A DNA stretch of 25,932 nt from a virus. Under the pieces are notes generated by a model. The model ran no database searches and had not been told where the DNA came from. It saw only the letters and a list, made by a program, of their open reading frames with translations. Every line of letters starts with the position of its first letter. Position 1 is the stretch's first letter. Both the position numbers and the translations under genes were made by a program. The stretch lies in the IMG/VR virus record IMGVR_UViG_3300021963_000582, positions 1 through 25,932 of that record. One strand, 5' to 3'. Below are positions 3,650 to 4,631 of the stretch, piece by piece.

Positions 3650-3976
3650 ATGGGGAAGCATTATTTACTTAACTTGTATGGATGCTCGTTTGTCCTTTTG
3701 GACGACGAGCGTTGTCTTATAGACTTATTAGAAAATGCAGCAGTTGCAAGTGGCGCAACTGTGGTTCAAACTATCTCAAAGAAATTTGAACCACAGGGAG
3801 TTACTGTAATTTGTTTGTTATCTGAAAGTCATATTAGTATTCATACTTGGCCTGAGGAAGGTAAGGCAGCAGTGGATGTTTATACCTGTGGCGACTGTAA
3901 TCCAAAGATTGGATGTGATATTATCATTGAGCAGTTATATGCCCAGAACCATACGTTAAGTTATATTGAACGGTAA
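3650..3976 (+). CDS. speD: S-adenosylmethionine decarboxylase proenzyme
   Basis: Bacterial-type AdoMet decarboxylase, which makes decarboxylated SAM, the aminopropyl donor for spermidine. The 108-aa length fits the short prokaryotic class. The self-processing site is present as LLSESHISIHTWPEEG: cleavage between E59 and S60 would turn S60 into the pyruvoyl cofactor, with H65 and C80 (TCGDC) in the positions of the conserved processing and catalytic residues. No speE is seen nearby, so the product would feed host spermidine synthase. speD is a known auxiliary metabolic gene of T4-like cyanophages. A promoter begins 18 bases downstream, so speD probably ends its transcription unit. Confidence 0.95.
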   Translation: MGKHYLLNLYGCSFVLLDDERCLIDLLENAAVASGATVVQTISKKFEPQGVTVICLLSESHISIHTWPEEGKAAVDVYTCGDCNPKIGCDIIIEQLYAQNHTLSYIER

Positions 3977-3994
3977 CAAAAGTTACAAAAGTTC

Positions 3995-4024
3995 TTGTAT
4001 AGATAGTGTAACTAGAGGTATAAT
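3995..4024 (+). promoter_or_regulatory. Sigma70-like promoter upstream of the secreted-protein/riboswitch unit
   Basis: TTGTAT (3995-4000), an 18-base spacer and a perfect TATAAT (4019-4024), placed 20 bases before the 66-aa gene. It would also be the nearest promoter for the structured RNA and the two small peptides downstream. Confidence 0.6.
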
Positions 4025-4044
4025 AATCCTCTACCGTTCATCCT

Positions 4045-4245
4045 ATGACTAAAGCATTCTTGCTTTTAGCATGGGTTCCACTTCTTTCTTTTGCCACGCC
4101 ACAATTTAAATCACATCCTGTGAGTATCAGTTGTGACGCTGCGTGGGAACTAATGGACATCGTTAAAAACGACGATGTAGTTATTCAAAGAGTAGAAGAC
4201 CGATTGCTATTAGAACTCCGAAAGGATGTTGTAACAAGGTGCTAA
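4045..4245 (+). CDS. Small protein with predicted signal peptide (66 aa)
   Basis: The N-terminus has a short basic start (MTK), a hydrophobic core (AFLLLAWVPLLSF) and a small-residue cleavage-like site near A17-T18, typical of a Sec signal peptide. The remaining ~48 residues are polar and hold two cysteines (C30 and the C-terminal residue C66) that could form a disulfide in the periplasm. The final 40 residues look helical (WELMDIVKND, VEDRLLLELRK). Function unknown; a short membrane anchor is the alternative. It lies directly before the structured RNA leader. Confidence 0.65.
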   Translation: MTKAFLLLAWVPLLSFATPQFKSHPVSISCDAAWELMDIVKNDDVVIQRVEDRLLLELRKDVVTRC

Positions 4246-4252
4246 AATTGAA

Positions 4253-4330
4253 TAGGACGGAAGTAAGCCGACGCGGAACGGAACGTTCATCGGGAAACCG
4301 ACGCAAACGCCGACTGAAGGAACGCTCTTT
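4253..4330 (+). ncRNA. Structured leader RNA resembling glnA/Downstream-peptide glutamine riboswitches
   Basis: Sequence pieces of the cyanobacterial glutamine riboswitch family are present: GGACGGAAGTAAG (4255-4267), CGTTCATC (4284-4291) and CTGAAGGAACG (4314-4324). CGTTC (4284-4288) can pair with GAACG (4320-4324) as the closing helix, enclosing a CGG-GAAA-CCG tetraloop hairpin (4291-4300). The order is unusual: the GGACGGAAGTAAG box lies upstream of CGTTC instead of between the two hairpins, followed by a CCG-ACG-CGG mini-hairpin (4268-4276). Two imperfect copies are visible (4256-4285 and 4300-4324). CTCTTT (4325-4330) can pair, with one G-U, to the Shine-Dalgarno AAGGAG (4344-4349), offering a translational switch. 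A DUF4278-like peptide follows, as for the Downstream-peptide class. Family membership is by eye; ligand binding is inferred. Confidence 0.55.
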
Positions 4331-4356
4331 AACCTAAAAAACTAAGGAGAACCCTA

Positions 4357-4494
4357 ATGTCTAAAGTAGTTTATCGCGGTGTTGAGTATGATACTCAGAA
4401 GCGCCTGGAGTATCAACAACAAATGATGCAGCAACCCCAACAATACAACGAAACCTATCGTGGTGTTAAGTTTGTAAAGGAGGGGCACAAATGA
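4357..4494 (+). CDS. DUF4278-like small peptide (45 aa)
   Basis: The peptide begins MSKVVYRGVEYDTQKRLEYQ and contains the YRGV-x-[YF] motif twice (residues 6-11 and 34-39, YRGVEY and YRGVKF), separated by a glutamine/methionine-rich linker. The YRGVxY start is characteristic of cyanobacterial DUF4278 proteins. AAGGAG (4344-4349) lies seven bases before the ATG. Its position right behind a glutamine-riboswitch-like RNA is the arrangement described for the Downstream-peptide motif, suggesting a nitrogen-linked regulatory role, though that is inference. Its last codons contain the Shine-Dalgarno for the next peptide, and ATGA couples the two. Confidence 0.75.
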   Translation: MSKVVYRGVEYDTQKRLEYQQQMMQQPQQYNETYRGVKFVKEGHK

Positions 4495-4589
4495 AGAAAC
4501 TCAACGTACTTCAACTCATTAAAGAGCAGAAGCAAAAAGAAGAGAGGCGTCGTAAGGCATCTCTCGCTACGCTGGTAGCAGCAAAATGA
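4491..4589 (+). CDS. Small basic peptide (32 aa)
   Basis: ATGA overlap with the DUF4278-like gene and a full AGGAGG Shine-Dalgarno (4478-4483) seven bases upstream support translation. The sequence starts MKKLNVLQLIKEQKQKEERR and continues as a highly charged helix with an alanine-rich end. It terminates two bases before the terminator region, so it closes the riboswitch operon. No family recognised. Confidence 0.6.
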   Translation: MKKLNVLQLIKEQKQKEERRRKASLATLVAAK

Positions 4590-4592
4590 TTC

Positions 4593-4622
4593 AGAGGGAG
4601 ACTTGACTCTCCCTCTTTTTTT
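4593..4622 (+). terminator. Strong rho-independent terminator
   Basis: Stem AGAGGGAGA/TCTCCCTCT (4593-4601 and 4608-4616) with a six-base loop CTTGAC and a T-run to 4622. It ends the leader RNA/peptide operon. The loop and 3' arm contain the -35 box of the next promoter. Confidence 0.9.
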
Positions 4623-4631
4623 ATGTATAAT
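4603..4631 (+). promoter_or_regulatory. Sigma70 promoter nested in the terminator
   Basis: TTGACT (4603-4608), exactly 17 bases, then perfect TATAAT (4626-4631). Transcription would begin near 4638, about 17 bases before the ATG at 4655, driving the 57-aa gene and thyX. Confidence 0.7.

Follow-up and report, generated by a model that had tools for sequence, protein, structure and literature searches.

Small two-cysteine protein genes nested in the P2 hairpins of tandem glutamine-class aptamers of cyanophages

Glutamine riboswitches are described in two types, type 1 (glnA motif, RF01739) and type 2 (Downstream-peptide or Glutamine-II, RF01704), and the phage RNA leader analysed here shares with them the conserved core, the helices P1 and P2, the leader position and a DUF4278-like downstream gene. 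Such riboswitches, tandem arrangements of them and their occurrence in cyanophages have all been described before: tandem glnA RNAs have been noted (PMC2864571), a review counts 157 doublets and 4 triplets (PMC9481103), and the same element, in compact form, is annotated as glnA, a single cis-regulatory RNA, in phage S-CREM1, with nested ORFs not mentioned for it in the available portion of that paper (PMC9964418). Distinct from RF01739 and RF01704, the phage arrays carry a protein-coding insert of 143-230 nt in P2. They differ also from the tandems of the review, which by its available text were accepted only without an intervening ORF (PMC9481103), in that the phage ORF is placed inside an aptamer and the spacing between aptamers is mostly 3-6 nt. 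The closest precedent is a short upstream ORF in the B12 aptamer of Mycobacterium tuberculosis metE: according to the accessible part of the report, uMetE2 (+123 to +170, UUG start, one system) is a translated ORF that lies in an extension of the aptamer and acts on the downstream gene (PMC11260477). The phage nested ORFs resemble it in that respect, but they encode conserved proteins of 49-69 amino acids, place their start codon in a core helix, reside in tandem aptamers and recur in many phages. The Mbox of M. tuberculosis likewise links a riboswitch to a conserved small upstream ORF which, judged by the title of the paper, is the controlled gene and not an aptamer insert (PMC12810186). Among the open-licence papers searched, none that we found describes a protein gene inside a glutamine aptamer. 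One likely reason is that Rfam models miss doubly nested arrays while matching compact relatives: the arrays of P-SSM4, P-HM1 and Syn9 (L008, L341, L342) gave no glutamine match at an Rfam E-value of 0.05. Such riboswitches are therefore probably undercounted.

The window, that is, the whole analysed stretch of 25,932 nt from IMG/VR record IMGVR_UViG_3300021963_000582, stems from a T4-like cyanophage with psbD-, speD-, thyX- and phoH-like genes (named in part after similar records). Read alongside relatives, positions 3960-4620 constitute one small transcription unit, with all its features on the plus strand. It starts with a putative NtcA-type box, GTAACAAAAGTTAC (GTA-N8-TAC, 3973-3986), recognised by its sequence 48 nt 5' of the first aptamer, and a -10-like TATAAT (4019-4024) flanked by the inverted repeat TAGAGG/CCTCTA (4013-4033). 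Aptamer 1 spans 4035-4280. Its 5' half, CGTTCATCCTAT (4035-4046), comprises the P1 strand CGTTC (4035-4039) and the P2 strand TCCTAT (4041-4046), its 3' half (4252-4280) the P2 strand ATAGGA (4252-4257), the conserved core and the P1 strand GAACG (4276-4280). The P2 loop in between is occupied by an ORF of 66 codons (4045-4245), whose ATG falls within the P2 strand and whose product has two cysteines and a hydrophobic N-terminus. After a linker of 3 nt, GAA (4281-4283), which holds no ORF, the compact aptamer 2 follows (4284-4324; P2 TCGG-GAAA-CCGA); an alternative hairpin between the two aptamers, GAACG-GAA-CGTTC (4276-4288), is predicted. A putative expression platform (4325-4349), in which CTCTTT is able to pair with the Shine-Dalgarno sequence AAGGAG (4344-4349), leads to the gene of a DUF4278-like peptide of 45 amino acids with two YRGV motifs (4357-4494). 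A second small ORF of 32 codons (4491-4589) overlaps the stop of the YRGV gene by ATGA, and the unit closes with an intrinsic-terminator-like hairpin (4593-4616) followed by a T run. A near-consensus promoter (TTGACT, 17 nt, TATAAT) at 4603-4631 overlaps this hairpin.

The assignment to the glutamine class is based on both covariance-model matches and conserved elements. In a search of 3960-4500, RF01739 picks out aptamer 2 (4282-4328; 30.9 bits, E 9e-5), which falls short of the gathering score of 35, and the whole window gave no Rfam match at the gathering threshold. For aptamer 1 there is no Rfam match up to E 10 in the same region, as expected from its insert of about 205 nt; its compact counterpart in the relative L002 does match RF01739. 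Compact relatives reach the RF01739 cut-off with 37.8 (L009), 35.6 (L002) and 35.4 bits (L004). The earlier note on this DNA had named both Rfam models: RF01739 gives the sub-threshold match to aptamer 2, and RF01704 none in 3960-4500 at E-values up to 10. Matches to RF01704 occur in the compact relatives L009, L004 and L007, that of L009 at 33.0 bits for a cut-off of 33. The conserved P1 strands (CGTTC/GAACG) and core nucleotides are present in both window aptamers. From 4253-4494 alone, the earlier note had described a tandem, glutamine-riboswitch-like leader of a DUF4278-like peptide in a phage, and this part of it is supported, with the two aptamers 3 nt apart. The boxes it listed, GGACGGAAGTAAG (4255-4267), CGTTCATC (4284-4291) and CTGAAGGAACG (4314-4324), are present, and their occurrence is beyond chance by the RF01739 match; the Shine-Dalgarno sequence and the 45-residue peptide with its two YRGV motifs are equally real. 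What has to be revised is the pairing of the parts. The GGAAGTA box, thought to precede its partner CGTTC, belongs to aptamer 1, whose 5' half lies about 210 nt upstream of the 3' half, outside 4253-4494 and with the ORF in between; GGACGGAAGTAAG...GGAACG (4255-4280) is the 3' half of this first aptamer. The segments 4256-4285 and 4300-4324, taken for two imperfect copies of one unit, correspond to the 3' half of one aptamer and that of the next.

A survey of related loci places the window in a broad family. The set was made up of two IMG/VR pattern scans (at least 120 stretches each), 10 phage records out of 21 brought in by BLAST, and the window itself. Its 191 sequences (190 related loci plus the window) contain 349 aptamer 3' cores, of which 9 have no 5' half on the contig, leaving 340 aptamers with both halves; all counts, from which a copy of the window (L001) was excluded, describe a sample of loci related by descent that is neither independent nor a census. 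The P2 length, from CGTTC to the core, is bimodal, with 15-37 nt in 192 aptamers, 143-230 nt in 148 and none between. Each of the 148 long P2s contains an ATG ORF that starts 9-12 nt past the first base of CGTTC, compared to 8 of 192 compact P2s with an ATG at the equivalent position; when the interiors of long P2s were shuffled with the ATG kept, the frame stayed open in only 238 of 7400 trials. Neighbouring aptamers are 3-6 nt apart in 156 of 158 cases. Among 152 tandem pairs (excluding L003, whose first core reads GTACG, and L068, whose pair lies 549 nt apart), at least one nested gene is found in 108: 64 have it in the second aptamer only, 17 in the first only, which is the class of the window, and 27 in both, while 44 are compact in both. 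Clustering at 90% identity retains all four classes (102 clusters: 10 both compact, 56 second only, 17 first only, 19 both). All of 11 further isolates have tandem aptamers with nested genes, 9 in both and 2 in the second only; they were fetched via homologues of the P-SSM4 and L036 nested proteins and give no estimate of frequency. Isolates with nested genes include Syn9 (gp196, gp197), P-SSM4, P-HM1, P-SSM7, P-RSM4 and S-CAM1. Judging from these genomes, many viruses of ocean cyanobacteria appear to carry a glutamine-sensing RNA pair with a small protein gene inside one or both hairpins. Shortened cores (GTAAGTCGCGGAACG or similar; ACGCAAACGACTGAAGGAACG or similar), outside the patterns used in the scans, were seen in Syn9-like and several other isolates (L342, L344, L345, L346, L348, L349, L350, L351), and a manA RNA (184 bits, L008:1019-1204) lies directly 5' of the doubly nested array of P-SSM4.

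Despite the insert, P2 and the core are retained. Comparison of homologous leaders, proposed in the earlier note, reveals covariation of the P2 arms in long and compact aptamers alike. In long second aptamers the arms form on average 5.91 contiguous base pairs (45 distinct arm pairs) as compared to 3.95 with partners swapped (maximum 4.58 in 500 swaps of 3' arms among sequences), and in long first aptamers 5.48 (21 arm pairs) as compared to 3.94 (maximum 4.86, 500 swaps), all of these values being inflated by shared descent. With one arm slid by 1-3 nt, a fraction of at most 0.54 remains paired, compared to 0.90-0.92 in register. P2 pairing is predicted to be stronger with the native than with a codon-shuffled interior in 35 of 45 and 90 of 97 cases. 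The core is as conserved in long aptamers as it is in compact ones and near invariant over the 340 aptamers with both halves; most cores were fetched by core patterns, and the same holds for subsets whose own core did not serve to fetch them. Taken at face value, this pattern would show that an aptamer with a nested gene is still kept under selection as an aptamer.

The nested proteins, 49-69 amino acids long, fall into several sequence families, and every one of 142 distinct proteins has exactly two cysteines, 31-41 residues apart. Median dN/dS is 0.33 in the family of the window (19 sequences) and 0.23, 0.28 and 0.44 in three others (21, 41 and 27 sequences); by this measure the nested ORFs are under purifying selection, and coding selection in turn supports their translation. 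The aptamer core would itself be coding sequence: ORFs in aptamer 2 extend into it and end at its TGA/TAA in 98 of 101 cases (mostly ..DAKAD-stop), and those in aptamer 1 use the core TAA in 21 of 47 (..GRK-stop), the others ending in or before the 3' arm of P2. Since the same TGA/TAA is found in 63 of the 65 compact aptamers whose core has 24 nt, the stop triplet is understood as an aptamer feature of which the ORF makes use, and was dropped as evidence for coding. In S-SRM01 (L003:1366-1533) the core TGA has become GGA, and the annotated nested ORF continues past the P1 strand to a later stop.

Six of seven nested proteins tested match phrog_504 or phrog_6471 (one of them only at E 0.015), phage families whose library entries carry neither a function nor a link to riboswitches; the nested protein of the window matched no PHROGs family at E 0.1. 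In the 10 phage records, phrog_504 has six matches, all to nested ORFs, and the four records without a match have compact aptamers. AlphaFold2 gave a mean pLDDT of 68.8 for the nested protein of the window and of 85.2 for its relative in L046, predicted as a two-helix hairpin. Foldseek against the PDB gave no match below E 3.5, and we therefore claim no function for the nested protein. When relatives were sought with the window-type protein, hence independently of the aptamer, 264 came up; 80 were kept, and the ORF was recognised in 79 of them (all except L261). It is nested in 74 of these, 69 by the strict rule and 5, having a GTACG core, by eye. The remaining five comprise one cut by the contig end, three without an aptamer core (L243, L244, L247) and one without the 3' half (L265); with part or all of the aptamer thus lost in 4 of 79, the protein can exist without the aptamer. 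In L243, L244 and L247 the gene outlives the core, with GTTCATCCT still on its 5' side and a terminator-like hairpin after it. L265:1490-1780 lacks the 3' half of aptamer 1, and an ORF of the aptamer-2 nested type appears shortly after the first nested gene.

Upstream of the arrays, an exact GTAN8TAC occurs within 100 nt in 133 of 165 unique arrays, where mononucleotide shuffles lead one to expect 5.0. It ends mostly 44-48 nt before CGTTC, with 116 arrays having one that ends 40-60 nt before, and in 22 arrays the counted match ends 5 nt before CGTTC and overlaps the -10 inverted repeat. An NtcA-type promoter thus likely drives the unit. NtcA sites are known in cyanophages, at 1-16 per genome in the part of the source at hand (PMC3037559). 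Together with the glutamine class of the aptamers, the box makes it plausible that the phage leader senses the nitrogen status of the host, as the earlier note had surmised. The inverted repeat that surrounds the -10-like box and immediately precedes aptamer 1 is seen in the window, in L004, L007, L009 and others; its arms covary from one phage to the next (the best arm averages 5.91 nt over 156 unique arrays, compared to 4.20 in mononucleotide shuffles). With a transcription start just past the -10 box, the repeat would not lie wholly within the RNA.

Downstream, the encoded peptide begins with a YRG motif in 156 of the 161 cases with a called downstream ORF. That of the window matches phrog_5049 (E 1e-10) and PF14105 (DUF4278) with 19.1 bits (E 0.0017), short of the curated cut-off of 25.3 bits, so that membership in DUF4278 was rejected and 'DUF4278-like' is the name we use; its median dN/dS among 24 relatives is 0.053. 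In some relatives (L135, L136, L144, L342) the 32-residue ORF (LNVLQLIKEQ.., 4491-4589) and the YRG domain form a single fusion, with the order reversed in Syn9-like phages, and these fusions suggest that the two peptides may work together. The pairing of CTCTTT with AAGGAG, already noticed in the earlier note, is a hairpin that folding predicts also for the relatives sharing this leader. In that clade, which includes the window, the Shine-Dalgarno sequence is predicted to be unpaired at 0.01 when folded freely and at 0.22 with the aptamers forced (15 arrays); the corresponding values for the other clade, where the CTCTTT pairing is not conserved, are 0.39 and 0.43 (26 arrays). With clear masking in one clade only, an ON logic for the downstream gene is weakly supported by folding. 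The P1-P1 hairpin between the aptamers comes at no energy cost relative to the unconstrained minimum in 38 of 41 folded compact tandems (the 41 include L068, a mis-joined pair), and may possibly represent the ligand-free state.

The reading that we favour, with somewhat better than even confidence, builds on four observations: the architecture itself, how widely it occurs, covariation of the P2 helix in which the nested gene starts, and purifying selection on the nested protein. In it, tandem glutamine-class aptamers carry a two-cysteine gene in the P2 loop, closed aptamer and nested translation are mutually exclusive, and glutamine turns the downstream gene on. The ATG of each nested ORF overlaps P2 or directly adjoins it, with CGTTC at roughly -12 to -5, and a Shine-Dalgarno tetramer at -14 to -5 is absent in 147 of 148 nested ORFs. 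The stretch that ribosomes bind to start the nested gene (about -12 to +3) would thus be the P1/P2 strand of the aptamer, used without a Shine-Dalgarno sequence, so that nested initiation and the folded aptamer should exclude each other, with glutamine presumably deciding between them. The closed, glutamine-bound aptamer would block nested translation and, conversely, a ribosome on the nested gene would open the aptamer. At low glutamine and with NtcA active, the nested protein would be made; at high glutamine, the aptamers would close, the nested gene would be shut and the YRGV peptide favoured. Glutamine riboswitches of both types in cyanobacteria are ON switches, according to the available part of PMC6316151. 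Whether the whole amounts to a two-way switch, in which P2 serves as scaffold for the ligand and as ribosome site of the nested gene, glutamine picks the nested protein (low) or the YRGV peptide (high) and the ribosome competes with the ligand, we regard as evenly balanced.

Of the other explanations, the one that fares best, albeit rather unlikely in our judgement, has a small phage gene family settle in a permissive P2 loop, comparable to endonuclease genes in intron loops, and be translated regardless of glutamine in an otherwise normal riboswitch. Such genes do come and go: the compact L017 and L131, which has a gene in aptamer 1, are 98.2% identical over 600 nt downstream. The same two-cysteine protein type fills both aptamers. 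A mere lodger would not, however, be expected to have all 148 of its start codons within or next to the pairing strand, never deeper in the loop, and to lack a Shine-Dalgarno sequence of its own, an arrangement in which initiation and P2 can hardly coexist; the preference of native over codon-shuffled interiors for P2 pairing speaks against it, too. Clearly less probable is a regulatory upstream ORF whose translation, not its product, matters, with ribosomes unfolding the aptamer and thereby setting the YRGV output. It has a model in Mycobacterium, where by the accessible text the ORF inside the metE B12 aptamer suppresses the downstream gene (PMC11260477), and ribosomes terminating within the core of aptamer 2, as its ORFs nearly always do, would cover the P1 strand; but the length of the proteins, the selection on them, their invariant cysteines and their division into several families indicate a product with a function of its own, and the tandem arrays without any nested ORF (44 of 152) do without such control. 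That the aptamers are decayed or repurposed, their boxes persisting without glutamine being bound any longer, is highly improbable: the sub-threshold Rfam score of the window and the loss of core or 3' half in L243, L244, L247 and L265 would fit, yet the near-invariant core in long and compact aptamers, the covarying P2 and the relatives L009, L002 and L004 that reach the RF01739 cut-off do not. The permuted or reordered aptamer of the earlier note, suggested by the box order within 4253-4494 alone, is ruled out for practical purposes by the 5' half at 4035-4046 and by the unbroken compact tandems of S-PM2, S-CREM1, P-TIM68 and AG-345-P14 (one or both aptamers are split by a long insert in the other six of the 10 phage records), each aptamer having the ordinary order CGTTC - P2 - CGnAA core - GAACG.

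A host origin of the nested ORFs was also considered and rejected on the host loci covered here. RF01739 matches were found in 54 of 151 genomes of the host family; the 30 loci read are all compact, without a tandem of the phage kind, except L195, which is a phage-type array. All 37 host 3' halves identified by the strict pattern lie inside compact RF01739 matches, as compared by eye. The phage core pattern occurs in three contigs of the genome collection (L192, L193, L194), two of which bear the title Prochlorococcus, the third being a Dehalococcoidia MAG; at least one of these contigs (189,106 bases) probably represents phage DNA within a single-cell genome.

Lastly, the tandem arrays with nested genes have importance beyond the single locus. 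If our reading of them is true, selection can keep an aptamer as an aptamer even when a complete conserved protein gene interrupts it, and a single helix can serve both the binding of the ligand and the start of translation, in opposite senses. The presence of the element in the well-used isolates Syn9, P-SSM4 and P-HM1 makes this directly testable. By the look of its sequence, the same stretch of RNA is built both as a nutrient sensor and as a gene, which bears on how cyanophages may read the nitrogen status of their hosts.
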